Made by a program: the position numbers and the translations under genes
IMG/VR virus record: IMGVR_UViG_3300025245_000002
Span: 1 to 42,475 of that record
Source: a virus
Direction: 5' to 3' (one strand)
Length of the DNA stretch: 42,475 nt
Shown here: positions 5,569 through 39,116 of the stretch, piece after piece
Layout: each line of letters opens with the position of its first letter
Numbering within the stretch: position 1 is the first letter of the stretch
Notes under the pieces: generated by a model
Told to the model about the DNA's origin: nothing
The model's database searches: none
What the model saw: the letters and a program-made list of their open reading frames with translations, nothing else

Positions 5569-7431
5569 TTATTTTCCAATCGATGTAGTTGGGAATGGCC
5601 AGGCGACAGCGGGAGTCAGTGCGGCAGCTGCTTGTGCGGCGCGGTCCTTTTTCACCTTGACGAGAGGCGCAGTTGCGTCGTCTTGCTGCGCCTGCGGCTT
5701 CGTCTTGAGCGTGAGCGTCTTGCGTGGCGCAGATTCAGTCGCGTCCTGCACAACGACTGGCGTGCTGGCTTCCTCCTGATTGGCGATGGCTTGCATTGCC
5801 AGCACCGTTGGACGTGGCTCGTCGTCAAGGTCCCAGTGGCACATGCTGAGGCTTTCGCCGACAATCAAGTCCATCAGCAGCAACTGGACGGTCGTAAGGT
5901 CAGCTTGATCGATGTAGGCACACAGGCCAGCGTCGCTGCGGTCCTCAAATGGGTACACGTCTCCGATCAAGTCGTCGGGCAGGCTGTGGTCAGGGCTGTC
6001 CAGAACAAGCGCCTTGGTAAGTTCGCGCAGCATTGGCAACGTGAGGCCTGCCGCGGCCCGTGCGCGGATCTTGCGATATTGGTTGACGCGCTCTTTGGTG
6101 ATTGCGTCGGCGCGGCGCTTGCGCTCCTCTTGTTCTTTTTTGTGCTTGAGCGCTTCTTCTTGGTGCTTGGTCTGCTTCGGCGCTTTGGTCGGATCCGCTG
6201 CTTCGGCCGCCAAGCGAGCGTCGCGAACTGCCTGAGTTTCGCAGATACCCTTTTTCTCGAGCGCGACTTGTACATCGGAGCGCCGGTAGACCGCATCCAC
6301 TTCGCCATCCTCGTGCTTGACGTATTTGACCGGCTTTGGCCGCTCGTCATCCGCTAGAAGTTCAATGACGTAGCCGCTCATCCCGGTAGCTGGCGCAACG
6401 TTCGCGAAGGTGCTGAGGTGGCTGGAGTCGGTGACGAACTCGCTTTCGCGTTGCCAGGTTGTGCTGCTGATTGCTTTCGCTTCCGCGCCCTCCAGCACTG
6501 GAATGCCGCGCTTGTTTGCATGCACGACGATGCGCTGGTAGTGCGCCGCCCTTTTTTCTTCGAAACAGTCGGGGTCAGTACAGACGTCTGCACTCTTTGC
6601 ATCTGGATAGATTTCGGGCTGATTGCCGGCCCGCTTCGGGCACTTCGTACAGTTGCCGGCAGTTGCGAGCAGCTTGGCGTCCTTGGTGTCGAAGGGAGCT
6701 TCTGCCAGGTCGAGAGTGTATCGGCGCGCGATGTGTGCAGCTGCGGCACGATATGACATTGCGTCGCCGTTGTGTTGTGGCGCCAGGATTTCCTTCAACG
6801 CACGGTTCTGTAGCTCGGGTACTGGGATGCGTGCGATCAGCAGCGCGGTCGATGCCGACAGCGCATCCTGGTTGTCGAGAAACACCTCGCGTGCCTCGAT
6901 CGAAAGGGCGCATAGCTTCAGGCGGCCGTAGATGTAGGAGCGACTTTTCTTGAGGCGCTCGACGAGCTGGTCGGCGCTGTAGCCGTGCTTCATCATCAAG
7001 CGCTCGTAGCCCTCTGCTTCCTCTAGGGGATGCGGATCTTCGCGCTGCAGGTTCTCCAGTATCTGCAGTTCGATTGCGTCGTGGTCGGACAGATCGCGGC
7101 AGAGTGCCGGAATGTGCGCGACGCCGGCGATGACCGAAGCGCGCCAGCGACGCTCGCCGGCGATGATTTCAAAGCGGATGATCCCGTCGGCGCCAACCGG
7201 CAATGGGCGGATCAGGATCGGCTGCGCGACACCTTTCTCCTTGATGCTCGCGGAGAGCTGTTCCAGCTTCTCCTGGTTAAAGCGCTTGCGGTTGGTCGGC
7301 GAGTTGACCAGGTGCGTTACGTTGTAGTGGCCAAAGCTGCTGCCGTCGTCCAGTTGCTGTTCGTTCAGAACGACTGGCAGGCCGTTCGGCACCAATTGCG
7401 GTGCTGCGATGAGTGAGAGTTGAGTTGACAT
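5569..7431 (-). CDS. ParB/RepB/Spo0J-family protein, phage-borne
   Basis: A 620-aa protein. The ParB N-terminal domain (about residues 45-135) has the CTP-binding motif GERRWRA (92-98) and the canonical ENLQRED (126-132). A helix-turn-helix domain (about 150-175, KHGYSADQLVERLKKSRSYI) follows. A Cys-rich insertion near 265-305 (CTKCPKR, VCTDPDCFEE) looks like a zinc knuckle, and the rest is a long charged helix and an Ala/Lys-rich tail. ParB clamps load at palindromic parS sites and slide on DNA using CTP. No ParA is encoded here, so classical partition is unlikely. The start MSTQLSLIAA has GGAG 9 bases upstream; an alternative ATG at 7446 overlaps the preceding stop (TAATG). A near-copy of the phage 16-bp palindrome lies inside this gene (6578-6593). 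Confidence 0.9.
   Translation of the reverse strand: MSTQLSLIAAPQLVPNGLPVVLNEQQLDDGSSFGHYNVTHLVNSPTNRKRFNQEKLEQLSASIKEKGVAQPILIRPLPVGADGIIRFEIIAGERRWRASVIAGVAHIPALCRDLSDHDAIELQILENLQREDPHPLEEAEGYERLMMKHGYSADQLVERLKKSRSYIYGRLKLCALSIEAREVFLDNQDALSASTALLIARIPVPELQNRALKEILAPQHNGDAMSYRAAAAHIARRYTLDLAEAPFDTKDAKLLATAGNCTKCPKRAGNQPEIYPDAKSADVCTDPDCFEEKRAAHYQRIVVHANKRGIPVLEGAEAKAISSTTWQRESEFVTDSSHLSTFANVAPATGMSGYVIELLADDERPKPVKYVKHEDGEVDAVYRRSDVQVALEKKGICETQAVRDARLAAEAADPTKAPKQTKHQEEALKHKKEQEERKRRADAITKERVNQYRKIRARAAAGLTLPMLRELTKALVLDSPDHSLPDDLIGDVYPFEDRSDAGLCAYIDQADLTTVQLLLMDLIVGESLSMCHWDLDDEPRPTVLAMQAIANQEEASTPVVVQDATESAPRKTLTLKTKPQAQQDDATAPLVKVKKDRAAQAAAALTPAVAWPFPTTSIGK
6578..6593. repeat. 16-bp palindrome family, copy 1 (one mismatch)
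   Basis: GTACAGACGTCTGCAC differs from the perfect palindrome GTGCAGACGTCTGCAC by one base. It lies within the ParB-family gene, where it codes for part of the Cys-rich segment, so coding constraint may explain this copy. Confidence 0.7.
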
Positions 7432-7445
7432 TCGGGATAGCTCCA

Positions 7446-7649
7446 TTAGTCGCGGTTGCTCGCCGCTACGGTGTTCGTGTCGATAGTGAGGTTGAAAAGA
7501 ATGTCGCCGAGTGCATGTTCGTCATGCCCCGCGTAAGCGGAAAGCAGCGCGATGAACAGCATCGAGCGAAGCTCTGGATTGAATGGATGGCTCTTCGTGG
7601 CCTTGTCGGCGCACTCGCGCAGCGCCTTTCGATACTGTTTGACGTTCAT
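7446..7649 (-). CDS. Small phage early protein, unknown
   Basis: A 67-aa protein starting MNVKQYRKALRECADKATKS, mostly helical and charged. Its stop overlaps an ATG upstream of the ParB-family gene (TAATG), and its start lies 3 bases after the preceding gene's stop, with GGGA about 7 bases upstream. It is a member of the leftward operon; no family is recognised. Confidence 0.6.
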   Translation of the reverse strand: MNVKQYRKALRECADKATKSHPFNPELRSMLFIALLSAYAGHDEHALGDILFNLTIDTNTVAASNRD

Positions 7650-7652
7650 GGC

Positions 7653-8177
7653 CTAATCCCGGTCGTTTGCTGCGAGGGATTTGAAATCGACGGTTGGTGC
7701 CCGGCGAACTGGATGCTTGCGTGCGTACATCCGCAGCGCACGACCTAACGATGGATCTTTGAGTGCGGTGTCAAGCGAACCAACGACCTGCAAGGTGCGA
7801 TGTGCGGCGATCAAAGCCATTTGCTCAACATCGACTGGAGTGACGGTGATGCCGCACGGGGTATCGCCCTGACGCTCAAGTTCGGCCTCAATCGCGCCGG
7901 CGGCAGTAGCTGCGCAAGTGCAGAACGTGGCGGTGCCGGTGCTCGTGCGCACTTTGACGTTGAACTCTTGCACGAGGTGGGCATGAATCGCGATCGCCTG
8001 GCGGAGATCGTCAACAGTGGAGCCAAGCATGTCAGGGAAGCCTGCGCCTACAAGGAGACTGTTTGCATTGGTGGCAGCGGCCTGCAACGTCTGCATGCTG
8101 GCAAACAGCGCCGACGCGTGATCACTCAGCGAGGAATCAGGCGCGGTCATGGTTGCGTGAGGGAGTGCGGCATTCAA
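7653..8177 (-). CDS. Phage early protein, unknown, TTG start
   Basis: A 174-aa protein. A TTG start at 8177 is chosen because it overlaps the upstream stop as TTGA and has GAGG 7 bases before it; an ATG at 8150 lacks any ribosome-binding site. The N-terminal half is Ala/Ser/Thr-rich and helical. The C-terminal third (RMYARKHPVRRAPTVDF) is basic and might contact nucleic acid. No domain is recognised. Confidence 0.55.
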   Translation of the reverse strand: MNAALPHATMTAPDSSLSDHASALFASMQTLQAAATNANSLLVGAGFPDMLGSTVDDLRQAIAIHAHLVQEFNVKVRTSTGTATFCTCAATAAGAIEAELERQGDTPCGITVTPVDVEQMALIAAHRTLQVVGSLDTALKDPSLGRALRMYARKHPVRRAPTVDFKSLAANDRD

Positions 8178-8365
8178 TTGCGCACCTCGCAAGGGGCGCC
8201 ATCGGGAAGGTGTGCAGACGTCTGCACAATGCGACGAACAGGCTCAGCAAGATTGCGGGCCTTGATGTAGTCATGACCTTTCAGGCCAGCATAGGGATCA
8301 TGGGTCTGTTTCACCACCCGTATCTGATCGGTGCAAGTAGGGGTACTGCGTGCCGCATCATCCAT
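8174..8365 (-). CDS. First gene of the leftward operon, small unknown protein
   Basis: A 63-aa protein starting MDDAARSTPTCTDQIRVVKQ with the strongest ribosome-binding site in the operon: AGGAGG five bases before the ATG. It sits 27 bases downstream of the predicted start of the leftward promoter, the usual place for a phage pL-type first gene. The 16-bp palindrome at 8212-8227 is in frame and codes for VQTSA. No family is recognised. Confidence 0.65.
   Translation of the reverse strand: MDDAARSTPTCTDQIRVVKQTHDPYAGLKGHDYIKARNLAEPVRRIVQTSAHLPDGAPCEVRN
8212..8227. repeat. 16-bp palindrome family, copy 2 (perfect)
   Basis: GTGCAGACGTCTGCAC is a perfect 16-bp palindrome inside the first gene of the leftward operon. 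Other perfect copies are at 14583, 25546 and 39101. Confidence 0.9.
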
Positions 8366-8398: not shown

Positions 8399-8428
8399 AC
8401 TATAGCAAATGATAGGTATAAAAGACAA
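8399..8428 (-). promoter_or_regulatory. Leftward early promoter (pL-type)
   Basis: Read on the minus strand, TTGTCT (8428-8423) and TATAGT (8404-8399) are separated by 18 bases. Two operator copies overlap the -10 and -35 boxes, so repressor binding would block RNA polymerase directly. The predicted start is near 8392, giving a 27-base leader before the first gene. Confidence 0.7.
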
Positions 8429-8460
8429 GCAAATGCTAAATATCACATGATCATTTGCTA
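8403..8460. promoter_or_regulatory. Left operator cluster, three 12-bp sites
   Basis: Three copies of the near-palindrome TAKCANNTGMTA are found: TAGCAAATGATA (8403-8414), AAGCAAATGCTA (8427-8438) and GATCATTTGCTA (8449-8460). A fourth, overlapping match is at 8441-8452. Spacing between centres is 24 and 22 bp. They flank the repressor gene together with the right cluster at 9316-9365, as in lambda OL and OR. The repressor and Cro-like proteins are the likely ligands. Confidence 0.75.
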
Positions 8461-8565: not shown

Positions 8566-9294
8566 TTACCGACGGCGGGCTTTGCGTCGATGCTCGGCCA
8601 TCACCCCGATAATCGTAAGGTGTTCCGTGTCACTGCGAAGCGTAGGGTAGTCGTCATTAAGTGGGGCTAGCTCAAAGATCACTTTGCCGTCTTTGTCGAT
8701 ACCGCGAGGGCGATACTTCTTGAAAGTTGCCTCTTCACGGCCATTTTTCGCGGCGACGTACTCACCTGGGCGCGGTTCCCAGTCCGGTTCGATTACAACG
8801 ATGTCTCCTTCCCTGAACTCAGGAAGCATGGAATCGCCTTCAATCACCAGACCAAATGCCCATGTGGAATAGTCGTCATCCGTATAGATTGTCGCGAAGC
8901 CATCACCTACTTCATATGGTTGCATTATTTCCTTCAAAGCACCTGCCTGTATTGCCGAGATAACCGGAATTGCTCTTCTGCCCAGTGGGAGACTGGTCAC
9001 GTTCGCGTCAAATTGCTCTTTCCCTTCAGAAATGAACGGTAGCAATTTACCACGACTTGCTTCCTCAGGGGGATGAACCCGGTCAAGCCACAAAGTGGGC
9101 AGTTCGGCCGCGATCTCAATCGCACGCGCTGCCTTTTCGCCAAAGTTCTTTCCATCCCGATATTTTTCGGATAGCACCTGCGATAGGCGAGTCTCGTCAA
9201 TGCCCGTTTGACGGGCGAACTGCGCAACGTTGCCGCCCGTGCGACGGCTAATCTCCTCTCGGAGGTTCTGACGACGAATTGAGTTCATGTCCAT
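8566..9294 (-). CDS. CI-like phage repressor (XRE HTH plus S24 peptidase)
   Basis: A 242-aa two-domain repressor. An N-terminal XRE-type HTH (about residues 20-65, VAQFARQTGIDETRLSQVLS) is followed by a linker with an Ala117-Gly118 cleavage site (SAIQAGAL) and a LexA/S24 domain with catalytic Ser155 (EGDSMLPEF) and Lys192 (ATFKKY). RecA-stimulated self-cleavage would inactivate it on DNA damage and induce the prophage. It should hold down both early promoters through the six operator copies. The start MDMNSIRRQNL is chosen by family resemblance; ATGs at 9336 and 9321 are in frame but lie in the operators. No clear ribosome-binding site marks any of them. Confidence 0.9.
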   Translation of the reverse strand: MDMNSIRRQNLREEISRRTGGNVAQFARQTGIDETRLSQVLSEKYRDGKNFGEKAARAIEIAAELPTLWLDRVHPPEEASRGKLLPFISEGKEQFDANVTSLPLGRRAIPVISAIQAGALKEIMQPYEVGDGFATIYTDDDYSTWAFGLVIEGDSMLPEFREGDIVVIEPDWEPRPGEYVAAKNGREEATFKKYRPRGIDKDGKVIFELAPLNDDYPTLRSDTEHLTIIGVMAEHRRKARRR

Positions 9295-9315
9295 TGCCGG
9301 ATTAGAAGCGATATT

Positions 9316-9365
9316 TAGCATTTGCGACACTATCATTTGCTTGACCTAACACCTATCAGTTGCTA
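9316..9365. promoter_or_regulatory. Right operator cluster, three 12-bp sites
   Basis: Three copies of the operator are present: TAGCATTTGCGA (9316-9327), TATCATTTGCTT (9331-9342) and TATCAGTTGCTA (9354-9365), the last fitting the dyad best. Spacing is 15 and 23 bp. The second touches the -35 and the third touches the -10 of the rightward promoter; the first two also lie where the repressor's own promoter must be. I could not identify that promoter with confidence. Confidence 0.75.
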
Positions 9366-9369
9366 AAGT
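9341..9369 (+). promoter_or_regulatory. Rightward early promoter (pR-type), leaderless
   Basis: TTGACC (9341-9346), 17 bases, then TAAAGT (9364-9369) make a near-consensus sigma-70 promoter. The predicted first transcribed base is 9376, which is the A of the Cro-like ATG. No ribosome-binding site precedes that ATG, so the mRNA appears leaderless. Confidence 0.75.
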
Positions 9370-9375
9370 TCGGGA

Positions 9376-13636: not shown

Positions 13637-13896
13637 AACAGGGTTATTAACAGGGGTTTTACAAACCCGGTACAGCGCAAAGCTAGCATTCATGCGGTGT
13701 TAACAGGGTTAACAGGGTTTGCAGGGGTTCCACGCGTGCGCGGGCGTATTTCTTAGATTACAGAAGCTGTAAGTTTTTTGATATGTGCGTGTAATCACAC
13801 CCTGTTAACCCTGTTAACCCTGTTAAGGCAAGCATTCATGCGGGTTTCAGCGTAACAGGGTTCAGTGAAGGCATGTAAAAGGTCTGTTCAACAGGA
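13637..13896. repeat. Iteron-like repeats, candidate replication origin
   Basis: The 306-base gap after the primase-helicase gene is full of the 9-bp unit GTTAACAGG. Two tandem units lie at 13699-13719 on the plus strand and three at 13800-13826 on the minus strand, with single AACAGG units at 13637, 13649, 13854 and 13890. A second direct repeat, AGCATTCATGCGG, is at 13685-13697 and 13831-13843. The inverted clusters are separated by an AT-richer stretch near 13750-13795. Iterons beside an initiator or helicase gene are typical of phage and plasmid origins. The inverted arrays could also form a long hairpin affecting transcription. Confidence 0.6.
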
Positions 13897-14549: not shown

Positions 14550-14580
14550 AAAGCCCGCCGCTGAGCGGGCTTTTCTTTTT
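14550..14580 (+). terminator. Rho-independent terminator before the late genes
   Basis: A 9-bp stem, AAAGCCCGC (14550-14558) with GCGGGCTTT (14565-14573), has a 6-base loop and is followed by TCTTTTT. It separates the early rightward operon from the late region and is a natural target for a Q-like antiterminator. Confidence 0.85.
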
Positions 14581-14582: not shown

Positions 14583-14598
14583 GTGCAGACGTCTGCAC
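14583..14598. repeat. 16-bp palindrome family, copy 3 (perfect)
   Basis: GTGCAGACGTCTGCAC lies between the terminator and the first late gene, in noncoding DNA. This copy is under no coding constraint, which favours a binding-site role. Confidence 0.9.
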
Positions 14599-14613: not shown

Positions 14614-15369
14614 ATGACCGTTGACGTGCGCGATGCAGTAAAGCAGCTGACCGCAGGGATGCTGGTGGAAGAGAAGCAGGTCAAGTTTGCCACACGGGTG
14701 GCGTTGACGCGCGTGGCGGTCAAGAGCAAGCAGGCCGAGGAAAGAGAGATGCGCGACGTCTTCGATAAGCCTACACCGTTCACCATGTCGGGACTGTTCG
14801 TGCGGCCGGCCACGAGCGACAGCCTCACCGCCGAAGTAAAGCTGAAAGACTTTGCCAGCAAGAGCAGTACCCCTGCCGCCAAATACATGGCAGCGCAGAT
14901 CAAGGGCGGGACACGTGGGCAAAAGCGATTCGAGCGAGCGCTGGAAGCCATCGGCGCACTGCCACCGGGCTACCGCGTGGTGCCTGGTGAGGGCGCGGAG
15001 CTGGATGACTACGGAAACATGAGCCGTGGACAGATCGTGCAGATCCTGGCCTACTTCCGTGTCTTCCCTGAGGCGGGCTACAAAGCCAATATGACGGACA
15101 AGCGCCGCGAAGCACTGCAGCGCGGCAACAAGACACGACAAGGCGTTTCCTACTTTGTGGGAAGACCTGGTGATCGACTCCCACTCGGCATCTATCAACG
15201 GGTGCATTTTGCGCGCGGCACCGCCATCAGGGCTGTGATGATCTTCGTGCGCAACGTCACCTATCAGGCGACGTTCGACTTTGAATATGTGGCGAAGCTG
15301 GCCATCGAGCAGCACTTCAAGGGTGAATTCCAGCGCGCCCTGGCCGAAGCGCGGGCATCCCAGCGCTGA
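14614..15369 (+). CDS. Conserved phage protein upstream of terminase, unknown
   Basis: A 251-aa protein starting MTVDVRDAVKQLTAGMLVEE with GGAG 6 bases before the ATG. It is soluble, basic and mixed alpha/beta, with the stretch FVRPATSDSLTAEVKLKDFA and a Lys/Arg-rich middle. The architecture recalls minor structural or tail-completion proteins of siphophages, but I cannot assign a family. It is the first gene after the late regulator and lies just before the terminase genes. Confidence 0.7.
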   Translation: MTVDVRDAVKQLTAGMLVEEKQVKFATRVALTRVAVKSKQAEEREMRDVFDKPTPFTMSGLFVRPATSDSLTAEVKLKDFASKSSTPAAKYMAAQIKGGTRGQKRFERALEAIGALPPGYRVVPGEGAELDDYGNMSRGQIVQILAYFRVFPEAGYKANMTDKRREALQRGNKTRQGVSYFVGRPGDRLPLGIYQRVHFARGTAIRAVMIFVRNVTYQATFDFEYVAKLAIEQHFKGEFQRALAEARASQR

Positions 15370-18551: not shown

Positions 18552-19595
18552 CTAATCGGATTCATTGTCTTCCGGTAACTCTGATTCGGTTCCCCCTGTA
18601 GTTAGCTGTATTCGTCGAGATTCTTTGACCAAATCAATCCCACTTTCAGTAAGCTTCCAATACTCATTTTTATCGTCGAGAGCCTTCGATTTATCGGATG
18701 GGGACGTTAAACCTAATGCAGACCAGTCGATAAGCCAAGACTTGACGGTGTTGTTTGGTACCGGAAATTCATGTCGATACTCGCCTGGATTCACATTGCA
18801 AACCATTTGAGCCGCGTAACGTGACAAATGCGCAATGCTTGCTTCAACCATTAACTCTGGGCCCAACACTATAAATAACTCAAAAAGATCAACCTCCTTC
18901 GATTCTTCCCAATCCTTAGCATCCTTCATCCAAATATGCATCCGGCGTTTATTTCTTAATAGTGTCTCCACTAATTCTAGGCGCAGTTTTTCGTGATTAA
19001 TTACGGACGCATCTTTCATTCTCTGAAGTTCACCTCTTAATTCACCATTTTCGGCGCTCAGTCTTGCGAGTTCTGCATTCGTCTTCGCATCACTAACCTG
19101 CGAAGCTCGCACCCACCCTTCCCTTGGATAGAGGGCGAATGCTTTCATGAGTGCAATCGAACACTTTCCGTACAAGTCGTCAGTATTCTTCCAAAAACTA
19201 ACGTGTCTTTTCTTAATCTTTTCCTTGAAAGCAGTTAGTGATGTAATGCTTTTGGTGTCTATTTCAGTAAAGTTCGAAGGCCACGCCGACGATGAGTCTA
19301 GTATAAATCCTAGAACCGGAATCCCCGTTGACGCTGCATAATCGTACTCCTTCTCTGTATAGCTTGTACCATCAGAGGTGACCGAGCCATATCGGTTTGC
19401 TGAGATGATCACATAATAATCACTTTGATCGATCTGGCGTTTAATAATATTCCATTGCTCTTCGTCAGCAGCACTGAACATTTCCATGCCGACCGGAATA
19501 TGCCCCATTTCCAGTATCGCTTTAATAACCTGATCGCGCTGTTCTTTTAGGTCCAAATACGTGGAACTAACGAATACCTGATATTTTGCCGACAT
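18552..19595 (-). CDS. DUF4062 protein, candidate defence gene
   Basis: A 347-aa protein starting MSAKYQVFVSSTYLDLKEQR; AAGGAG lies 9 bases upstream. Residues 1-90 form a DUF4062 domain: FVSSTYLDL, then GHIPVGMEMF, SDYYVIISANRYG and YTEKEYDYA. This is a TIR/nucleoside-deoxyribosyltransferase-like fold that in other proteins is joined to effectors of immune systems. A coiled-coil follows (about 170-200, ARLSAENGELRGELQRMKDA). The C-terminal half is helical with a winged-helix look (LTESGIDLVKESRRIQ). It is AT-rich and on the strand opposite to all the late genes around it, so it must use its own promoter. Single-gene exclusion of other phages is a plausible role but is inferred. Confidence 0.8.
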   Translation of the reverse strand: MSAKYQVFVSSTYLDLKEQRDQVIKAILEMGHIPVGMEMFSAADEEQWNIIKRQIDQSDYYVIISANRYGSVTSDGTSYTEKEYDYAASTGIPVLGFILDSSSAWPSNFTEIDTKSITSLTAFKEKIKKRHVSFWKNTDDLYGKCSIALMKAFALYPREGWVRASQVSDAKTNAELARLSAENGELRGELQRMKDASVINHEKLRLELVETLLRNKRRMHIWMKDAKDWEESKEVDLFELFIVLGPELMVEASIAHLSRYAAQMVCNVNPGEYRHEFPVPNNTVKSWLIDWSALGLTSPSDKSKALDDKNEYWKLTESGIDLVKESRRIQLTTGGTESELPEDNESD

Positions 19596-19763
19596 CTGAT
19601 AACGCTCCTTCATTCTTTTTATGTGAACTTAGTTTTGCCGTGGGATCAGGAAAAGCCTACCACTTTTGTAAGCACGATCTTGCTAGGTGTGTGGCCAGAA
19701 TTAACAAAACCGGCGAAATACGCATGTTGCCAGCGCGGGAGAATGGAGTGGAACAGCTGCAAG

Positions 19764-22169: not shown

Positions 22170-22187
22170 CCGCACTGTGCATTCACC

Positions 22188-24350: not shown

Positions 24351-24361
24351 CCATTAATCCG

Positions 24362-24381: not shown

Positions 24382-24405
24382 GTTCAAATCGACAAGGAGC
24401 CTTCA

Positions 24406-24735: not shown

Positions 24736-24737
24736 GC

Positions 24738-25037
24738 ATGTTCGACCAGCTCGAAGCTCGCCTTAACAAGCTGGCAATGGAGCGCCTGGCGAATGCCAGC
24801 GCTCTCATTGCCGGGGACGAGGTGCCGGTCATCTTTGATGCCGAGTACAGGGAAGGCATGGTCGGAGTGGGGATGGGTGCGGCGGCGCCGCAAATGATTA
24901 TCAGCAACGACCGCATGCCGGCGGACTTTATCGAGTCGCGCATCACCATCCGTGGCGTGACCTGGAAGGTTGCCGATGCCCAGCCCGACAGCGAGTTGCC
25001 GACCGGCTTGAGCATGGTCTACCTGGAGAAAGCATGA
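24738..25037 (+). CDS. Head-tail joining protein (lambda FII-like)
   Basis: A 99-aa protein. The segment VPVIFDAEYREG, followed by ITIRGVTWKVADAQPD, matches the FII-type attachment proteins that close the head and receive the tail. It starts two bases after the decoration gene's stop and overlaps the next gene by four bases (ATGA). Confidence 0.75.
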   Translation: MFDQLEARLNKLAMERLANASALIAGDEVPVIFDAEYREGMVGVGMGAAAPQMIISNDRMPADFIESRITIRGVTWKVADAQPDSELPTGLSMVYLEKA

Positions 25038-25483
25038 CGAGCCAGCACCTGGCCATCGCGAAGGCGATCGCTGAGCGATTCAAGGCGGTGCCGGACATTG
25101 CCGGCGACCGCATTTACCTGAACCGCTCGCGGGCACTGAGCAGCGACAAGACCAGCGCGGTGGTCGTGCGCGTGGCACGCAGCGCCTCCAAGGAATCCAG
25201 CCAAGTCGGTGGCCGCACCAGCTGGAGCACCCTGATCGAGATCGAATGCCTGGGGCGCGATGGTGCGGACGATGTACCGGGAACGTGCGCTGACCAGGTG
25301 CTGGAACTGGTCTTCAACAACCTCGACGGTGCCGTTGATCTCGGCTACGGCGTGATGAGCATCGAGCCCCTGGACGGCAGCACGCTGGACTGGGACTTCG
25401 ATCAACTGGATTCAAGCGTCGCCTGTGTGACCGCGCGCTTTGTAGTGAAACATCAAACCAACGGGAGAACCCTGAAATTATGA
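25034..25483 (+). CDS. Minor tail / tail-terminator protein
   Basis: A 149-aa protein with the layout of the Z/U class of siphophage tail proteins: an N-terminal helix (SQHLAIAKAIAERFKAV), central beta strands (TSAVVVRVARSAS, STLIEIECLGRDG) and a final strand (ACVTARFVVKHQT). It would cap the tail tube where it joins the head. It is coupled by four-base overlaps at both ends. Confidence 0.65.
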   Translation: MTSQHLAIAKAIAERFKAVPDIAGDRIYLNRSRALSSDKTSAVVVRVARSASKESSQVGGRTSWSTLIEIECLGRDGADDVPGTCADQVLELVFNNLDGAVDLGYGVMSIEPLDGSTLDWDFDQLDSSVACVTARFVVKHQTNGRTLKL

Positions 25484-25680
25484 ACGTGATTGACTCGTTC
25501 GACGAATCCGGCGACGACGCGCTGGAACGCGCCGTCTCCGGCGGTGTGCAGACGTCTGCACAAAACGCTGACGAAGTGGTGCACAAAGAACCTGCCTTGG
25601 GTGGCAGTTACATTCGCATCGTCGAAACCGGTGACCTGGTTAAGCAGGAGTTGCCCGCTGAACCGAAAGAGGGGGAATAA
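25480..25680 (+). CDS. Small acidic late protein, unknown
   Basis: A 66-aa acidic protein starting MNVIDSFDESGDDALERAVS. The perfect 16-bp palindrome at 25546-25561 lies in frame and codes for VQTSA. It overlaps the upstream gene by four bases and starts a compact pair with the tail-tube gene, which has a strong ribosome-binding site at its end. No family is recognised. Confidence 0.6.
   Translation: MNVIDSFDESGDDALERAVSGGVQTSAQNADEVVHKEPALGGSYIRIVETGDLVKQELPAEPKEGE
25546..25561. repeat. 16-bp palindrome family, copy 4 (perfect)
   Basis: GTGCAGACGTCTGCAC lies inside the small acidic gene, in the middle of the head-tail block. It uses the same reading frame (V-Q-T-S-A) as the copy in the first gene of the leftward operon. 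Confidence 0.9.
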
Positions 25681-25682
25681 GC

Positions 25683-26660
25683 ATGCCTGAACGCCTTATC
25701 CGTAAGACTGTCATCCTGGCGAAGCTGGAAACTACGTACGGCGCGGATTCCACACCGACAGGTGCCGCCAATGCCCTGGTGGTCAGTAACGTGTCGATCA
25801 ACGCGCTGAACGCGGAGTACATCAAGCGCGACATCATTCGTGAATACCTGGGCGCATCCGAAGAACTGCCTGGCGCAAGTTACGTTGAATGCGGATTTGA
25901 CATTGAACTGGTCGGCGCTGGTTCCTCCGCCCAGGCGCCTGCCTGGGGTCCGCTGATGCGTTCGATTGGCTTTGCCGAAACTATTACCGCCGGTGTGCGC
26001 GTGGACTACACCCCTGTATCGGGCAATTTCGAGTCCGCGAGTATTTACTACTACGACGACGGCGTGCTGCACAAGCTGTTGGGTGTCCGCGGCACGGCCA
26101 CCTTGGATCTGACGGTAGGCCAGAAGCCGATCATCAGTTTCAAGATGATCGGCGTTGATGGCGGAATTGCCGCTGCCTTGAACCCTGCCACAACCTTGAC
26201 CGCCTGGCGAGTGCCCCAGATTGTCACCGATGACAACTCGGGCGATATCACGATCGGCGCCACGCACGCTGTTGCGACTGCGCCGGCATTCGTCGGCGGT
26301 ACGGCGTTCCCTAGCCTGGGCCTGACCATCGACCTGGGCGTCAGCGCGACTTTCCAGAAGATCCTGGGTGGCAAGTCGGTCGCTATCACCGACCGCGAAG
26401 TCACCGGCGCCATCAAGCTGAAACAGACCGCAGAGGAAGAAGTCGCCTTCATGGCCGACGTCAAGGCAGCCGCGAAAAAGTCCATCGGACTGATCCACGG
26501 CACCGTGACCAACGACAAGGTGCTGGTCTACCTGCCTGCCGCGCAGTTCAAAGAGCCGACCAAGGAGGAGCTGAATGGCGAGCGCCTGATCGGCTACAAG
26601 CTGCGCGCGCTGCCTGTGGCTGGCAACGACGAACTCCGCATTGCCACCAGCTTCGCCTAA
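25683..26660 (+). CDS. Major tail tube protein
   Basis: A 325-aa protein with GAGGGGG 7 bases before the ATG. It reads as a tail tube subunit: an N-terminal strand (KTVILAKLETTYGADSTPTG), the insertion NAEYIKRDIIREYLGASEEL, and repeated beta strands to the end. Hexamers of this protein form the tube around the tape measure. A small hairpin (TGGGCC, three bases, GGGCCCA) follows its stop near 26666. Confidence 0.85.
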   Translation: MPERLIRKTVILAKLETTYGADSTPTGAANALVVSNVSINALNAEYIKRDIIREYLGASEELPGASYVECGFDIELVGAGSSAQAPAWGPLMRSIGFAETITAGVRVDYTPVSGNFESASIYYYDDGVLHKLLGVRGTATLDLTVGQKPIISFKMIGVDGGIAAALNPATTLTAWRVPQIVTDDNSGDITIGATHAVATAPAFVGGTAFPSLGLTIDLGVSATFQKILGGKSVAITDREVTGAIKLKQTAEEEVAFMADVKAAAKKSIGLIHGTVTNDKVLVYLPAAQFKEPTKEELNGERLIGYKLRALPVAGNDELRIATSFA

Positions 26661-26699
26661 TAACCTGGGCCTGCGGGCCCAACTCTTGAAAGCAGAAAA

Positions 26700-27050
26700 A
26701 TGACTAAGCGTTTTGTATCAGTTATCAGCCCGACCGTTGTCGTCCCGGTCAAAGGCTCCATCAAGGATGCCGGTGGCGCAGCCGTGCCATTCAAGTTCAG
26801 CCTGACCTGCCGCCGTATGCTCGCGAGCGAGCTGAAGAACCGCATCACCAGCGGTGACTTCGATATGAAGGAAATCGTCAAAGAAGTTACCACCGGCTGG
26901 CAGGGCCAGCGCCTGATTAACGACGAGGAGACTGGCCAGCCGGCCGAGTTCTGCGCGGAAGCGTTGGACGCGATGCTGGACATCAGCGGTATGGCCCTCG
27001 TGTGCTTCAACGCATTCACCAAAGAGTCCGGAGCTGCGGAAAAAAACTAG
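26700..27050 (+). CDS. Tail assembly chaperone, short form (G-like)
   Basis: A 116-aa chaperone that coats the tape measure before tube assembly. It lies between the tube and tape measure genes, the invariant position of this family. A slippery heptamer, A-AAA-AAC (27041-27047), lies in frame just before the stop codon TAG (27048-27050), so a fraction of ribosomes would slip back one base and continue to 27406. Confidence 0.85.
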   Translation: MTKRFVSVISPTVVVPVKGSIKDAGGAAVPFKFSLTCRRMLASELKNRITSGDFDMKEIVKEVTTGWQGQRLINDEETGQPAEFCAEALDAMLDISGMALVCFNAFTKESGAAEKN

Positions 27051-27406
27051 CTGCGGTCGCGCGCTGCGCTGCCCTCGGGCAGCTGGCAAGCCCTGATGAG
27101 ATGGAACAGGACAAGGCGGAGGTTGACGAAGCCGCCGCCGCATTTGGGTTGGCACCAGTGTTCGAACGTGACGAAACCGAGCCGATCTATCTCTGGCCAG
27201 AGAACGTCGCGTCCTGGAACTTCTTTCAGGCGGTGTCAACGCAGTGGGTGGTCGGGCCAGGCGGCGCGATAGGCCTTCACTATCCGGCCGTGACCATCGT
27301 GCGCGATGCGCAGGGCATTCGGCGTAAAGATTGGCCGAAGCTGTTTTCAGAGGTCCAGGCAATGGAGCGCGCGACCTTACAGGCATGGAGAGAACGTAAG
27401 AAATGA
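26700..27406 (+). CDS. Tail assembly chaperone, frameshifted long form (GT-like)
   Basis: This is the -1 frameshift product of the chaperone gene. After slipping at 27041-27047, translation continues in the -1 frame as LAAVARCAALGQLASPDEME and on to the stop at 27406, giving about 235 aa. The extension (PIYLWPENVASWNFFQAVST) is the T-like domain that contacts the tube protein. Its stop overlaps the tape measure ATG by four bases. A hairpin downstream of the slip site, GCTGCC-CTC-GGGCAGC near 27067, could stimulate slipping. There is no good ribosome-binding site for independent translation of the second frame. Confidence 0.85.
27041..27047 (+). promoter_or_regulatory. -1 ribosomal frameshift site A-AAA-AAC
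   Basis: The heptamer is in the X-XXY-YYZ phase (GAA AAA AAC TAG), one codon before the stop. It joins the G-like and GT-like chaperone frames. Confidence 0.85.
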
Positions 27407-30400
27407 GTGAATCCCGAGTAGTAATCACGGCAGATGCAGCGCGCGCGGTGGCAGAGTTTCAGCGCTTCCGCGCTCAGGCTGTCGGCGCACTCGAACATGT
27501 CTCAACTGCCGGCAGCAAGATCAATGGCATCCTCGGGACAATCGGCGTGACCTTGTCGGTTGCCGCATTTACCGGCTGGATCAAGGGCGCCATCGATGCC
27601 ACCGACGCGGCAAGTGACCTGTCGCAGAAGACAGGAATTGCTATTGAAGATCTGGCCGGCCTTGAGCTGGCATTCCAGAAGGGCGGCATGGAGGCCGGAG
27701 ATCTCGAAGGATCGATGGCAAAGCTCTCGAAAGCGATCGTCGAAGGTAACCCCGCATTCGAGAAGCTCGGTATCAACTCCAGAAACCTGGATGGCTCTTT
27801 CAAGAGCAACAAAGAATTGTTATATGAACTGGCGGACCGGTTCAAGGGTATGGAGGACGGTGTTGAAAAGGCCGCCCTTGCGCAGGAGATCTTTTCAAAA
27901 TCTGGCGGTGCCATGATCCCGATGCTGAACGAGGGTTCAGAAGGCCTACGCGAGATGGACGAGTGGGCACATAAGCTGGGACTGTCCTTGAGCGAGGATG
28001 CTGTCGACAAGGCAGGCCAGTTCAATGACACCCTGGATCTTCTCCAGCAAGGCGGTCAGGGTGTGGCACGCGGCATTGCAGCCGAGCTCCTGCCGACGTT
28101 GACTCGCTTGACTGGCCAGTTCCTCACTACGATGACCAGTGGCGACCGGCTCGCGAAGACTGCGCATTTCATCGCTACGGCGCTCAAGCTGCTGTATTCG
28201 GTTGGTGTCGGCGTCGTAGAGGTGTTCTCAACAGTCGGCAAGACCCTGGGTGCCGCTGGAGCGCAACTGGTGGCCATTATGCAGGGCGATTTCAAAACGG
28301 CGGCGGAGATCGGTCGCCAATGGCAGCAGGATATCGGCAGCAGCTGGAAAGAATCACTGGCCTCGATCGAGGCCGCTTGGTCCGGTACCGGCGATGGCGC
28401 CGTCGAGGCGATGGCCAAGATCACCAGGGAATCGACCGTGGTGGGCAACAGTGCTGCGACCATTGCAGAGAAGGCGAAGAAGGCGGCAAAAGAGCTGGAG
28501 AATGAAAATAAGGCCTTGGCCGAAGTGGCCGGCCTGACAGGCACCTTCATCAAAGACTGGGAGCAGTTGAGCGCGCTGTACGGCAAGGGCCGGATTTCGA
28601 TCGAGCAGCTGACGAAGGCCCAGGCCGATCTTCTGGCCAAGCAGCCAGCTGTGAAGGCGGCCGCGGAGGCGGAAGTGGCAGAACGCAAGGCCTTGGCCGA
28701 TGCGGTAGAGCAGACCGCCAAAGCCTACGACGTCGCCGCCAACGCCAAAACCAAAGCACTCGCGGGATTGCAAGCGCAAAAGGACGAGAACGAGCAGATC
28801 GGCCTGAACGCGATCGAGCTGGCCGAACTCAACGCCGTGCGCCTGGAGAGCCAGGCGCTGCGTGCGGAAGAGAACGCTGACATTGCCGAAGGTATCGACC
28901 TGACCGGCGAGATGGCGCAGCAATATCGCGACGAAGCCGCTGCATTACGCGAGCTGGCCAACGAGCAGCGCAGCGGAGCACGTAAGAAAATTGCCGCCGA
29001 TGAGGCTAAGGCTGTTGCTGAGGAATATAAGCGTGCTGCAGACAGTATCGACAAGTCGTTGACAGATGCGCTGCTGCGCGGTTTTGAGTCGGGGCAGTCG
29101 ATCGCAAAGAACCTGATCGGGACGATCGAGAACATGTTCAAGACCCTGGTCCTGCGGCCAGTGGTCTCCGCTGTGGTCAATCCGGCCGCGGGTATGGTCG
29201 GCAGCATGTTCGGCATGGCTGGGCCGGCTATGGCGGCCGATGGCGGCAAAGGCATGGGCTGGATCTCCACGGGTAAGAATATCTACGATGCGATCTCGTC
29301 GGGCTTTGCCGGCGTCGGCGCATCGTTGGGCGCCATGGTGTCAACGGTCGGGAACTTTTTCGGTTCGTCGGCGATATCCGCGTTCGGCGCCGGAATGGGG
29401 ATGAGTGCATCCCAAGCGGCAGCTGCATCGGCTGCGTACAACGGCGCTGGAATGACCGGCCTGGGCTCGTCAATCTCCGCTGGCTCCAGTGTCGGCGCTG
29501 CAGCTGGCGCGGCGGCGGGCATTGCCGGCGGATTCTACGGCGGACGGCTGGTATCTGGCGGTTACTCCGCATTCGGTGGATCGGGCAATTCCACCGTTAG
29601 CGCCGGCACGGCGATTGGTGCTGTTGTCGGCTCTATCATCCCCGTGTTGGGTACAGCAGTTGGCGGGCTCGTTGGTGGCTTGATTGGCGGCACAGTGAAT
29701 CGCTTGTTTGGCCACAAGGCCAAAGAAGTGACAGGCCAAGGCATTACCGGCCAGTTCGGGCCAGAGGGACTGACGAATGGGCAAACCTACGCGGATTGGT
29801 TCCAGAAGGGTGGGGTTTTCCGCAGCAATAAGCGCGGCCGGGAGATCGGAGCAATTGACGCCAGTTTGCAAAAAGCACTGGGCGATGGATTCTCGGCGGT
29901 CAAGGCGGTAACGTCTGACTTCGCTGCGACTCTCGGTTTATCCGCTGACCTGGTGACTGGCTATACGAAGTCACTGAACCTGGCGCTAACCAAGGATGAA
30001 GCCAAGAACAAAGAGCTGCTGGCGAAGTTGTTCACCGATATGGGTGACGAGCTTGCCTTGCGCCTCGTGCCAAGTATCGGGAATTTTGCGGCCGAAGGTG
30101 AGAGCGCGAGTGCCACCTTGCAGCGGCTGGCCGGCAATTTCAAGATTGTCGATGGCGTGCTAACGACGTTTGGGATTACTTCCCAGGCGGCATTTGGTGC
30201 CGTTGGGGTGGCCTCGTTGGAGGCACGTGAAAGGCTACTGTCGCTGGCGGGTGGCGCTGAGGCGCTGGCAAGCCAGACCTCATTCTTTGCACAGAATTTC
30301 CTCTCCAAGGCAGAGCAGATTGCGCCAATGCAGAAGGCGCTCAGCGAACAGCTGAATTCCCTCGGTCTTGGTGGAATCAAAACAAACGAACAGTTCAAGC

Positions 30401-31407
30401 AGGCAGTGCTGGGACTTGCCAGCTCTGGCGCCTTGGCCACGGAGACTGGCGCGAAGACTTACGCAACGTTGATGCAATTGGCGCCAGCGTTCAAAGCCGT
30501 CACCGATGCCGTCAATGAGATGCTTAGTGAACGCACGGAACTACAGAAGCAGTTGGACGAATTGACGATGACCGCGAATGAGCAGCTGGCAAGGCAGCGT
30601 GACGCGATCGGTGAAAGTAACCGCGCGCTGTTTGACCAGGTGCAGGCGGCGAAAGAGGCCAGGGCAGCGCAGGATGCAGCCAAAAGTAGCCTGGGAGACT
30701 TCATCGGTCAAATGAAGTCGTTTAAGGAAACCGCGCGTGGCTTGAATGGCAGCCTGGCGCTGAGCAGTTTGTCGTTGTTGACGCCGGAACAGCAGTACGC
30801 GGAAGCGCGTCGGCAGTTCGAGCGCACGCGCCAACTCGCGGCGGCCGGCGACGTAACCGCGCAGGGCAACCTGGGGGCCGTTGAACAGGCATTCCTGGAA
30901 TTGTCACAGCGGATCAACGGCGGCGATGCGCAGTACTCGTCAGACCTGGCCACCGTCATGCGCACGAACGAGGAATTGGCGCAATGGGCTGGCGATTCAG
31001 CAAATGTCGCGCAGGCGAGTCTCGATGTACTCAATAGCTCCGATGCAACGTTGGTGGAGATCAAAGCGACCTTGGCTGCGATTGCGCAAGGTGTGCAGCG
31101 TCAGCCAGCGACCGCATCTAGCGGCGAGCCGGGTCTGGTTCGTTCGTTTGGGATCGATTACGCCGAATTTGGGGCGGGGAATACCACGGCGCTCGTGGAG
31201 GAGATCAAGTCCCTCAGGGCATCGAACGACGCGATGATGCGAGAACTGAAAGGGCTGCGCGCCGACCAGATGAAGCAGACCGGGGACCTTATCACGGCTG
31301 GCGCCGGCGCCGCGCAACGTGCAGCTGAAACAGTGGTCGAGGGTGTGCGGGACGCTGTGACCGAGGCTGCGTATGTCGAAGCTAATTCTACGAGGGCCTT
31401 ATCCTGA
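27403..31407 (+). CDS. Tape measure protein
   Basis: A 1334-aa protein setting tail length. The N-terminal domain (SRVVITADAARAVAEFQRFR, then SDLSQKTGIAIEDLAGLELA and KGGMEAGDLEGSMAKLSKAI) is the phage tail tape measure domain. Hydrophobic Gly/Ala-rich stretches at about residues 600-770 are likely membrane-interacting segments used for DNA entry, and coiled-coil stretches fill most of the rest. At about 0.15 nm per residue a tail near 200 nm is expected. The start overlaps the chaperone stop. Confidence 0.95.
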   Translation: MSESRVVITADAARAVAEFQRFRAQAVGALEHVSTAGSKINGILGTIGVTLSVAAFTGWIKGAIDATDAASDLSQKTGIAIEDLAGLELAFQKGGMEAGDLEGSMAKLSKAIVEGNPAFEKLGINSRNLDGSFKSNKELLYELADRFKGMEDGVEKAALAQEIFSKSGGAMIPMLNEGSEGLREMDEWAHKLGLSLSEDAVDKAGQFNDTLDLLQQGGQGVARGIAAELLPTLTRLTGQFLTTMTSGDRLAKTAHFIATALKLLYSVGVGVVEVFSTVGKTLGAAGAQLVAIMQGDFKTAAEIGRQWQQDIGSSWKESLASIEAAWSGTGDGAVEAMAKITRESTVVGNSAATIAEKAKKAAKELENENKALAEVAGLTGTFIKDWEQLSALYGKGRISIEQLTKAQADLLAKQPAVKAAAEAEVAERKALADAVEQTAKAYDVAANAKTKALAGLQAQKDENEQIGLNAIELAELNAVRLESQALRAEENADIAEGIDLTGEMAQQYRDEAAALRELANEQRSGARKKIAADEAKAVAEEYKRAADSIDKSLTDALLRGFESGQSIAKNLIGTIENMFKTLVLRPVVSAVVNPAAGMVGSMFGMAGPAMAADGGKGMGWISTGKNIYDAISSGFAGVGASLGAMVSTVGNFFGSSAISAFGAGMGMSASQAAAASAAYNGAGMTGLGSSISAGSSVGAAAGAAAGIAGGFYGGRLVSGGYSAFGGSGNSTVSAGTAIGAVVGSIIPVLGTAVGGLVGGLIGGTVNRLFGHKAKEVTGQGITGQFGPEGLTNGQTYADWFQKGGVFRSNKRGREIGAIDASLQKALGDGFSAVKAVTSDFAATLGLSADLVTGYTKSLNLALTKDEAKNKELLAKLFTDMGDELALRLVPSIGNFAAEGESASATLQRLAGNFKIVDGVLTTFGITSQAAFGAVGVASLEARERLLSLAGGAEALASQTSFFAQNFLSKAEQIAPMQKALSEQLNSLGLGGIKTNEQFKQAVLGLASSGALATETGAKTYATLMQLAPAFKAVTDAVNEMLSERTELQKQLDELTMTANEQLARQRDAIGESNRALFDQVQAAKEARAAQDAAKSSLGDFIGQMKSFKETARGLNGSLALSSLSLLTPEQQYAEARRQFERTRQLAAAGDVTAQGNLGAVEQAFLELSQRINGGDAQYSSDLATVMRTNEELAQWAGDSANVAQASLDVLNSSDATLVEIKATLAAIAQGVQRQPATASSGEPGLVRSFGIDYAEFGAGNTTALVEEIKSLRASNDAMMRELKGLRADQMKQTGDLITAGAGAAQRAAETVVEGVRDAVTEAAYVEANSTRALS

Positions 31408-38111: not shown

Positions 38112-38578
38112 TGTCGCCTGTCGAATTCATTGAACTGCTGCTGCCGGCCGCGCAGGCCTGCCACCGAGATACCGGCATTCCTGCAAGTTTTACGCTCGCC
38201 CAGGCTGCTCTGGAGTCGAGCTGGGGCGCGCGAGCACCTGGTTTCAACCTCTTCGGAGTTAAGCCTGGGCCGGCTTGGAAAGGCGCGACGGTCCAGGTTG
38301 ATACGCACGAGTTCATCAAAGGCGTGCGCACGCCGGTCAAGTGCGCCTTCCGTGCCTACAGCAGCTGGCTGCATTGCATGCAGGACCATGCCGACTTCTT
38401 CCGGCAGAACCCCCGCTACCGGAAATGCTTTATCGAGCAGACCGGGGAGGGCTGGGCCCGTGCCGTCGCCGCTGCAGGTTATGCGACGGACCCATCGTAT
38501 GCCGACAAGCTGATCGCCATCATGCGCGGCCGTAATTTGGCCCGCTACGATGCGTTGCCTTCCAAGGTGTCGGCATGA
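38111..38578 (+). CDS. Endolysin, glucosaminidase family
   Basis: A 155-aa lytic enzyme with the FlgJ/LytG-type glucosaminidase fold: catalytic Glu35 in AQAALESSWGARA, then NLFGVKPGPAWKG, and the conserved AYSSWLHCMQDHADFF and AAGYATDPSYADKLIAIM. There is no signal peptide, so it needs the holin to leave the cytoplasm. It overlaps the holin by one base and Rz by four. Confidence 0.9.
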   Translation: MSPVEFIELLLPAAQACHRDTGIPASFTLAQAALESSWGARAPGFNLFGVKPGPAWKGATVQVDTHEFIKGVRTPVKCAFRAYSSWLHCMQDHADFFRQNPRYRKCFIEQTGEGWARAVAAAGYATDPSYADKLIAIMRGRNLARYDALPSKVSA

Positions 38579-39099
38579 CGCGCGTCCTAAGCCGCCTGCA
38601 GGACGTAATCCTGCCGGCGTGGCTCAAGTGGGTGGCAATTGCTGCCCTTTGTGTGGCGATGTATGGCGTTGGCCGGCTGCACGAAGCCCGCCGCGGGAAC
38701 GAAGCAATGTCCGATTACCTGGCAGCACAAGCCGCGCGTACCGTGGTGATCGGGCGCGCTCAAACCAAACTCGTGGTGCAAACCGAAATCAAGTACCGCG
38801 ACCGCATCCAGAAAATTTACTTGAAGGGAGAAGTCATTGAGAAACAAGTTCCCATCTATGTCACTGCTGCTGATAACGCTGAGTGCCGTATTAACACTGG
38901 CTTCGTGCGGTCACATGACGCAGCCTGGGCCGGTGAGCCTGCCGGACCTGCCTCTGGTACTGACCGTGACGCCGCCGGAGTTTCGCTCGCTGAAGTCTCT
39001 GAAGCCAACGCCTACAACGCCAGAACGTGCCTCGCCTGGCGAGAATTAGCGTTGGGGCTGCGGGAGCATTACTTGAAGCAGCAGGAAATTTTGAAATGA
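38575..39099 (+). CDS. Rz-like i-spanin
   Basis: A 174-aa inner-membrane spanin subunit. One N-terminal membrane segment (about residues 16-33, LKWVAIAALCVAMYGVG) is followed by a periplasmic helical domain. It overlaps the endolysin by four bases. The Rz1 gene is wholly embedded in it in a different frame. Together they would fuse inner and outer membranes in the last step of lysis. Confidence 0.85.
   Translation: MTRVLSRLQDVILPAWLKWVAIAALCVAMYGVGRLHEARRGNEAMSDYLAAQAARTVVIGRAQTKLVVQTEIKYRDRIQKIYLKGEVIEKQVPIYVTAADNAECRINTGFVRSHDAAWAGEPAGPASGTDRDAAGVSLAEVSEANAYNARTCLAWRELALGLREHYLKQQEILK
38837..39049 (+). CDS. Rz1-like o-spanin lipoprotein embedded in Rz
   Basis: A 70-aa outer-membrane lipoprotein in the +1 frame of Rz. 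The signal segment SLLLITLSAVLTLASCGHMT ends in the lipobox LASC. The mature part is short and Pro-rich (PGPVSLPDLPLVLTVTPPEF), as expected for Rz1. A TTG start at 38837 is favoured by GGAG six bases upstream; an ATG at 38858 would also keep the signal sequence. Complete nesting within Rz is common in phages. Confidence 0.85.
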   Translation: MRNKFPSMSLLLITLSAVLTLASCGHMTQPGPVSLPDLPLVLTVTPPEFRSLKSLKPTPTTPERASPGEN

Positions 39100-39100
39100 A

Positions 39101-39116
39101 GTGCAGACGTCTGCAC
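39101..39116. repeat. 16-bp palindrome family, copy 5 (perfect)
   Basis: GTGCAGACGTCTGCAC starts one base after the Rz stop codon, in noncoding DNA. Together with the copy at 14583 it brackets the late genes. Confidence 0.9.

Follow-up and report, generated by a model that had tools for sequence, protein, structure and literature searches.

The 16-bp palindrome GTGCAGACGTCTGCAC, which is repeated in this phage genome, is very probably the loading site, equivalent to parS, of the phage's own ParB-family protein, because it is common in ParB-bearing relatives and rare in bacterial genomes. On present sequence evidence, the best reading is that this ParB would act as a CTP clamp without ParA, loaded at the palindrome, coating the genome in the lytic phase and controlling operon borders in the manner of KorB or Noc, and we consider this rather likely. 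The stretch of DNA that was analysed (the window, 42,475 nucleotides) looks like a whole integrated prophage. The phage is temperate, integrating and tailed, with relatives in the Burkholderiales; an integrase is encoded at 40884-42203, and the attachment sites are:

209 to 225, plus strand: left att direct repeat (17 bp)
42349 to 42365, plus strand: right att direct repeat (17 bp)

A scan of the window found four exact copies of the palindrome and a fifth, with one mismatch, inside the ParB gene, at the same positions as in the preliminary description. No further copy was present in the window at up to three mismatches. The copies, which have no strand, were:

6578 to 6593: one mismatch, within parB, where the zinc-finger residues SADVCT are encoded
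8212 to 8227: exact, inside a small ORF (8174-8365, minus strand) that lies in the early leftward operon, with cI and orf179 on either side
14583 to 14598: exact and noncoding, in the gap between a terminator (14550-14573) and the Shine-Dalgarno sequence and ATG of 14614-15369
25546 to 25561: exact, in a short ORF (25480-25680, 66 aa) directly upstream of the tail tube gene
39101 to 39116: exact and noncoding, one base past the stop of ORF 38575-39099 and ahead of an adenine methylase gene

Two of the exact copies were thus noncoding, as had been noted. Matches to the palindrome in 100 dinucleotide shuffles of the window averaged 0.38, with a maximum of 2, in agreement with the earlier statement that chance would not produce such a 16-mer. 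When repeated 16-bp palindromes were searched for without bias, this family ranked first, with five members; the runner-up family had one. In the viral collection, a control palindrome of the same composition had 2 matches, versus at least 118 stretches for the 16-mer, and imperfect sites outside parB numbered 68 in 48 records versus about 0.5 expected from block shuffles. Chance origin of the copies was ruled out by the shuffles, the control palindrome and the imperfect-site counts.

The features of the ParB gene and protein were:

5569 to 7446, minus strand: ParB-family gene, 625 aa counted from 7446
7138 to 7158, minus strand: CTP-binding box GERRWRA, residues 97-103, predicted by motif
6829 to 6987, minus strand: region of the DNA-binding helix-turn-helix (residues 154-206 or thereabouts), in which contact residues are changed
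6565 to 6651, minus strand: four-cysteine zinc-finger-like sequence motif (Cys266, 269, 289, 294)
5590 to 5601, minus strand: C-terminal peptide WPFP, residues 616-619, conserved

Comparison with relatives suggests that translation starts at Met6 (7431). Profile and fold matches placed the protein (P0001) in the family with a CTPase N-domain and helix-turn-helix: it scored 127.6 bits against TIGR00180 (ParB/RepB/Spo0J family; cut-off 58.45), 86.2 against PF02195 (cut-off 26.3) and 42.5 against PF17762 (cut-off 22.6). Scores for TIGR04285 (Noc, 129.4 bits) and TIGR03734 (PRTRC system ParB, 128.5 bits) were under the respective cut-offs of 315 and 278.6. The predicted structure was of modest confidence (pLDDT 69, and below 50 for residues 1-24, the N-terminal part, where Noc has its membrane-binding helix), and the tail is rich in lysine and alanine. 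The CTP motif GERRWRA reported previously is present, and together with ENLQREDPHPLEEA it provides both putative CTP boxes (patterns GERRxRA and ENLQR...EEA). Across 59 ParBs the Box I pattern was recognised in 46 and the ENxxR pattern in 53, so some CTP boxes may be altered.

Site and protein were strongly associated in viral records. Of 50 records selected with the 16-mer, 37 encode the phage-type ParB; ParB_N was missing in the other 13, one of which (G006) spans 40.7 kb. Of the 50 records chosen by ParB and by record length, 47 carry the site at up to two mismatches, while a reversed-pattern control matched in 2. The site was not found at this threshold in three ParB-bearing records (G074, G083 and G088), in which no alternative repeated palindrome was found either, although G083 has an ordinary-looking recognition helix. 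Relatives carry one to seven sites, and two isolated phages, VarioGold and Aval, both have ParB and the site. Among 36 relatives by terminase (TerL), sites were present in 14/14 with ParB and 10/22 without it; among those of at least 37 kb, a cut chosen afterwards, the counts were 8/8 and 0/10. The ten ParB-free relatives with sites are shorter and most are fragments, yet three of them (G396, G397 and G409) are apparently long enough to cover the parB slot. In prophage G044 a NACHT gene occupies that slot, and two exact and several imperfect sites are kept. The prediction that phages lacking parB would not keep the palindrome therefore holds for the long TerL relatives and mostly in general, with exceptions among the shorter relatives and in G044.

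The sites themselves are under selection. Syntenic copies kept 15-16 of 16 bases, while flank identity was 19-51% except in the close relative G050. The counterpart of the copy at 8212 lies in the homologue of ORF 8174-8365 in G014, G027, G036 and G004 (flank identity 28-51%), the copy at 25546 has a corresponding copy in G050, G019 and G002, and the slot equivalent to 14583 is occupied in nine hand-picked relatives. Within parB, synonymous codon choice preserves the site according to codon resampling, with a statistic that ignores kinship and a set that includes three near-identical ParB pairs; on this result, the site in parB was rejected as a mere by-product of the protein sequence. Fifty-six of the 92 mismatches in imperfect sites fell at half-site positions 1 and 6, and in some sites (in Aval, G112 and G348) both arms were altered alike. 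With a crude gene caller, 94 of the 124 sites outside parB were inside called ORFs rather than at promoters, and 30 were intergenic (versus 6.8% of random positions). There was a weak trend toward regular spacing, slightly more even than random (26 records, mean percentile 0.32, combined p 0.016). An identical core was also found on a Myxococcus plasmid, near parB, near parA and dispersed; its ParB is related and of the zinc-finger type, with ParA alongside. Plasmids that encode other ParBs, from Flagellimonas, from Bacteroides (50 of 62 kb covered) and from Myxococcus (pYRE), did not show the core.

The regulatory region from which parB would be transcribed, and the terminator ahead of the late region site, include:

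8566 to 9336, minus strand: S24-type repressor (cI)
8399 to 8460, no strand: predicted left operator block with AGCAAATGAT-type repeats, upstream of the parB operon
8428 to 8399, minus strand: predicted leftward promoter, inside the left operator block
9310 to 9369, no strand: predicted right operator block, which mirrors the left one
14550 to 14573, plus strand: predicted intrinsic terminator, directly upstream of the site at 14583

Because the parB operon is behind predicted repressor operators, parB is probably expressed at an early lytic stage or once the prophage is induced. ParB made at that stage from the leftward operon would load at the five sites spread over the phage genome, two of them at either end of the late operon and the others in the early-left operon, ahead of the tail tube gene and in parB, and would then slide outward, as ParB clamps do, and coat the phage DNA. 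Its likeliest job would be to mark phage DNA and to control or insulate transcription at operon borders, not partition. The preliminary description had proposed a ParB clamp without ParA that organises DNA or regulates transcription from scattered sites; the association of site and ParB agrees with this, and the role, whether in organisation or in transcription, is one that we infer, as are ParB binding, CTP-driven sliding and early lytic timing. A more far-reaching version, in which early ParB turns replicating DNA into a coated body, a phage CTP-clamp chromatin, and WPFP and the zinc finger recruit a substitute for ParA, is offered tentatively.

It is unlikely that site-bound ParB is purely a transcriptional device that blocks or insulates RNA polymerase locally, at both ends of the late operon and in parB for autoregulation, with neither sliding nor coating. 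Placement by eye in ten hand-picked phages suits such a device: in 10/10 the late-start site was just 5' of the first late gene's start codon, in 6/10 a terminator-like hairpin directly preceded that site, and in 9/10 the right-end site came after a late gene's stop codon. However, the CTPase boxes are recognisable in most ParBs, some sites are in mid-operon positions inside TerL and tail genes, and the slightly even spacing also argues against a local device.

Partition in the true sense, with ParB borrowing a host ParA or riding the chromosome and the sites serving as centromeres of an occasional plasmid state, was judged quite unlikely. One relative is represented by a circular record of 36.9 kb that was deposited under the label of a Comamonas plasmid, and on the Myxococcus plasmid the related zinc-finger ParB adjoins ParA. 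However, ParA (PF13614) was found in none of the 50 records, including the window, in a search that matched in 14/14 control genomes, which bears out the earlier description of a phage ParB without ParA. None of the 59 ParBs had the ParA-binding motif [LFI]G[KR]G[LFI] at its N-terminus; the single match was internal, at residue 357 in G036. A recognisable ParA gene and the N-terminal motif of ParABS systems are thus absent, and since the usual motor partner is missing, the palindrome probably serves a use other than plasmid partition. The integrase and att sites, the dispersal of the sites over the genome rather than in a cluster, and the position of parB behind predicted lytic-type operators also argue against partition.

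It is very unlikely that another phage regulator (CI, CII or a late activator) reads the sites and that ParB merely co-occurs with them. A transcription factor or a stoperator-type repressor would fit the syntenic positions of the sites at operon borders. However, in a set chosen for ParB, the window ParB was found by blastp in 35 of 39 other ParB-bearing records, while the next best genes were common to 18 and CI to only 5, and no other gene was nearly as widely common as a candidate reader. The predicted CI operators also differ in sequence from the palindrome, the same core occurs on the Myxococcus plasmid with ParB and ParA, and ParB-less TerL relatives of at least 37 kb have no site.

The exact 16-mer was present in 28 of 294 bacterial family genomes, with one to six copies each, and it was found in 16 of the 21 genomes with a phage-type ParB versus 12 of the 273 without one (Fisher p 5e-15). 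At up to one mismatch, seven ParB-bearing genomes had 6, 4, 1, 1, 1, 0 and 0 copies, those with no site being G092 and G095. The alternative raised in the preliminary description, a host-chromosome motif or neutral repeat that lies in the prophage by chance, is hardly credible and was rejected as contradicted by these counts: although the 12 genomes without phage-type ParB hold one to three copies, the 16-mer is missing from 266 of the 294, every copy in the two of the seven hosts with four or more is within 33 kb beside a phage-type parB, and the core is conserved while its flanks diverged.

Several known systems resemble this one in part. Canonical ParABS (Spo0J-parS) shares the CTPase N-domain and helix-turn-helix, and parS, like the phage site, is an ACGT-centred palindrome; the phage differs in having no ParA and no ParA-binding motif, in its genome-wide sites and in its half-site, GTGCAGAC, and the Caulobacter contact residues G170, N178, T179, G201 and R204 are K, G, R, S and L in the phage ParB. 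The temperate phage N15 also has dispersed inverted-repeat ParB sites (sop), but its prophage is a linear plasmid with a ParA-type partner. The operator sequence of KorB differs from the phage palindrome, although several dispersed 16-bp operator-like sites on one replicon are a KorB-like feature, KorB is a ParB-family protein and KorB structures were among the matches of the phage model. Noc, a ParB relative with dispersed palindromes and no ParA of its own, was the best NCBIfam match by E-value and the best fold match, but the score was 129 versus 315 bits and the site sequence is other than NBS. The specificity residues of the phage ParB are R, R, A and S, versus Q, K, K and R in Noc (work on Noc/ParB specificity: PMC7383237). 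KorB-OB of RK2 is described as a CTP clamp with proximal and distal 16-bp operators and long-range regulation; it has KorA as partner and belongs to a conjugative plasmid, whereas the phage ParB has a cysteine finger and a long tail (PMC11790492). Staphylococcus phages of the Lacachita group encode ParB without ParA, and their authors knew of no characterised ParB-only phage; no integrase was found in them, and the accessible passages describe no sites (PMC10286716). Orphan ParBs lacking the ParA motif are widespread on prophages and are of the same broad class as the phage ParB; the survey maps fold and nucleotide binding, and its available portion describes no dispersed sites (PMC12704722). 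Among the open-licence matches listed, no paper gave the 16-mer sequence, and the parts available contained no description of a role for orphan ParB in integrating phages or of its DNA sites, nor of this ParB/palindrome system (phage ParB, clamps, ParB-only phages, dispersed palindromes).

If the more far-reaching version, the CTP-clamp chromatin, is true, phage DNA coated with ParB would be told apart from host DNA, which may matter for the timing of transcription, for packaging, or for protection from host nucleases and defence systems. These data suggest that CTP clamps have been taken over for phage lytic development. What ParB does without ParA is directly testable in this phage family, which offers site and protein together, along with natural cases of loss, variant sites and two phages in isolation.

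Pattern searches located the palindrome exactly at 8212, 14583, 25546 and 39101 of the window, with a one-mismatch copy at 6578, at the positions first described, and no further copies were found in the window at up to three mismatches. As had been expected, chance is a poor explanation: shuffled windows averaged 0.38 copies. A search of the window for repeated 16-bp palindromes returned this family with five members; the next family had one. The copy inside parB overlies codons for S/G-A-D-V-C-T in the zinc finger.

In its make-up the window resembles a whole integrated prophage, with att repeats and genes for a tyrosine integrase, an S24 repressor, a lambda-type terminase, and a VapE-like/DUF5906 protein that is probably the replication primase. 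Relatives of its ParB are harboured by Burkholderiales such as Undibacterium and Herbaspirillum. The features needed here are:

209-225 and 42349-42365: att repeats, 17 bp
5569-7446, minus strand: parB, encoding P0001
8404-8460 and 9310-9369: repeats of one type, flanking cI as mirror images

The left repeat block holds a predicted leftward promoter. Judged from sequence, the cI-flanking repeats are predicted repressor operators, and on that reading parB would probably be an early-left lytic gene. Behind the VapE-like gene, TTAACAGGG repeats are clustered in direct and inverted order at 13637-13863 and look like candidate replication-origin iterons. A DUF4062 gene (18552-19613), likely cargo, lies in a low-GC (47%) stretch with the terminase on one side and the portal on the other.

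The possibility that the palindrome is a host genome motif, raised in the preliminary description, was rejected, since the exact 16-mer was missing from 266 of 294 genomes of the Herbaspirillum genome's family, with 1-6 copies in the other 28, and copies were gathered at parB in two hosts. Seven genomes encoding a relative of the window's ParB were searched at up to one mismatch. All six copies in Herbaspirillum sp. 3R11 (5.2 Mb) fell within one 29-kb stretch and all four in Undibacterium aquatile (3.9 Mb) within 33 kb, in both cases overlying or adjoining a phage-type parB; three genomes had one copy each, and none was found in Paraburkholderia caffeinitolerans (G092) or an Acidobacteria bin (G095). 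In a number of the 28 site-bearing family genomes, several copies lay inside one prophage length.

A parB profile separated a phage type (E <1e-100, 21 of the 294 genomes) from weaker matches with E between 1e-64 and 1e-60, where the search stopped; this first look scores four candidates per genome, and some ParBs may be missed. The exact 16-mer occurred in 16 of the 21 phage-type genomes vs 12 of the 273 others (Fisher p 5e-15). Four of the five phage-type genomes without an exact copy were looked at: G342, G112 and G348 had imperfect ones, and G169, whose parB is broken, had no site in the DNA fetched. Among the 12 others, an exact site lay inside a fragmentary parB in G162, and G383 encoded a distant ParB; the remainder had no ParB in the 15-55 kb fetched.

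The same association was seen in viral records. The exact 16-mer was found in at least 118 stretches of viral contigs, against 2 for a control palindrome of equal composition. Fifty records were taken from the 73 contigs underlying the first 80 of these stretches; all contained 1-7 copies (up to one mismatch) and none the reversed pattern, and 37 encoded a relative of P0001. No ParB_N domain was found in the other 13. Four of these were looked at more closely: G006, the 23-kb partial record G038, G034, which stops beside the expected parB start, and G044. The last, an otherwise related prophage, has a 1,010-residue NACHT-domain STAND gene in the parB slot (L236, 11587-14618) and keeps its sites, some imperfect. 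Conversely, among 50 of the best 80 ParB relatives, picked by protein and contig size and sharing eleven records with the first set, 47 had a site at up to two mismatches, and the reversed pattern occurred once each in two; G074, G083 and G088 had no site at this threshold.

Terminase relatives gave a mixed answer. A search with the large terminase of the window gave 60 relatives, and 36 of the 37 records of at least 15 kb were searched for ParB and site. Sites (2-7) were present in all 14 with phage-type ParB. The expectation that phages lacking this ParB would not keep the palindrome held for 12 of 22 such relatives and failed for 10. At 37 kb or more, a length cut chosen afterwards, sites occurred in 8/8 records with ParB vs 0/10 without, and in four of these ten the terminase shares 80-83% identity with that of the window; 10 of the 12 shorter relatives without phage-type ParB had sites. 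One of these, G391, is cut at the terminase, whereas the parB slot should, by their apparent extent, fall within G396, G397 and G409, and a Pfam search found no ParB_N in them. Such records are evidence either against strict site-ParB coupling or for recent parB loss as in G044.

Conservation of the sites was greater than that of their surroundings. There were 114 exact copies in 48 records (1.72 Mb), and 68 imperfect copies (1-2 mismatches) outside parB where about 0.5 would be expected. Mismatches fell mostly at half-site positions 1 and 6 (56 of 92), with 11 at positions 2, 5 and 8, and some copies had both arms altered alike (GTGCACACGTGTGCAC in Aval, TTGCAGACGTCTGCAA in G348, GTGCATACGTATGCAC in G112), as expected if the reader is dimeric. 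Syntenic copies, paired by hand, kept 15-16 of 16 bases at 19-51% flank identity, except in the close relative G050 (69-95% at three of four places). By eye, the late-start copy lay just upstream of the first late gene's start codon in all ten phages compared, directly preceded by a terminator-like hairpin in six. The copy within parB was exact in 17 of 56 genes and averaged 2.6 mismatches vs 4.4 predicted by synonymous-codon resampling given the protein, with three finger-less ParBs left out and genes counted irrespective of kinship.

P0001 matches ParB_N and HTH_ParB and exceeds the TIGR00180 cut-off; it scores under those of the Noc and PRTRC ParB profiles. The relatives with known structures comprise ParB, Spo0J, Noc and KorB, and its AlphaFold model is of modest quality. 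That ParB comes without ParA was borne out, PF13614 being found in 0 of 50 records. P0001 was aligned to Caulobacter ParB, with residue numbering from PMC7383237. R173 and A184 are retained, whereas G170, N178, T179, G201 and R204 are replaced. The changed contact residues accord with a site in which the ACGT at the centre of parS is retained and the outer bases differ. A CxxC...CxxxxC finger was present in 56 of 59 ParBs and a WPFP-like peptide, mostly close to the C-terminus, in 27. The AWPFP-type peptide (window 5590-5601) is kept at or near the end of tails that otherwise diverged, and may be a partner-binding motif. The P0001 tail matches a histone H1-like family weakly, at E 0.009 and far short of that family's cut-off.

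Among plasmids, one of the nearest relatives is a 36.9-kb Comamonas record with phage gene content, in which seven copies were counted at up to three mismatches. Another, a Myxococcus plasmid, encodes two ParBs of the finger type, and ParA adjoins one of them. At up to one mismatch, the core GCAGACGTCTGC was present eleven times in the 50 kb fetched of this 64-kb plasmid; copies lie ~150 bp ahead of both finger-type parB genes, and the stretch separating parB from parA also holds the core. This ParB subfamily is thus accompanied by the same core also at an ordinary-looking partition locus. Dense repeated palindromes of other types lie at 21000-31000 of stretch L539 of this plasmid, and Myxococcus stipitatus pYRE (L540), a plasmid with two ParBs, has a separate dispersed family, GGGGGACGTTCCCC, in six copies.

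Two isolated phages, Acidovorax phage Aval and Variovorax phage VarioGold, have both ParB and sites; a word search of their publications found neither 'palindrom' nor 'parS'. The site was apparently undescribed in the literature searched. Orphan ParBs have been surveyed in PMC12704722, which describes no dispersed sites in the portion available; the authors of PMC10286716 were aware of no characterised phage with ParB only. According to PMC11790492, KorB is a ParB that exerts long-range silencing from 16-bp operators. Genome marking is a possible function of the phage ParB, and so is a role limited to insulation or road-blocking. In the mechanism we propose, the phage ParB would load at the palindromes, close on CTP and then slide, so that it may coat the phage genome and act at operon borders.
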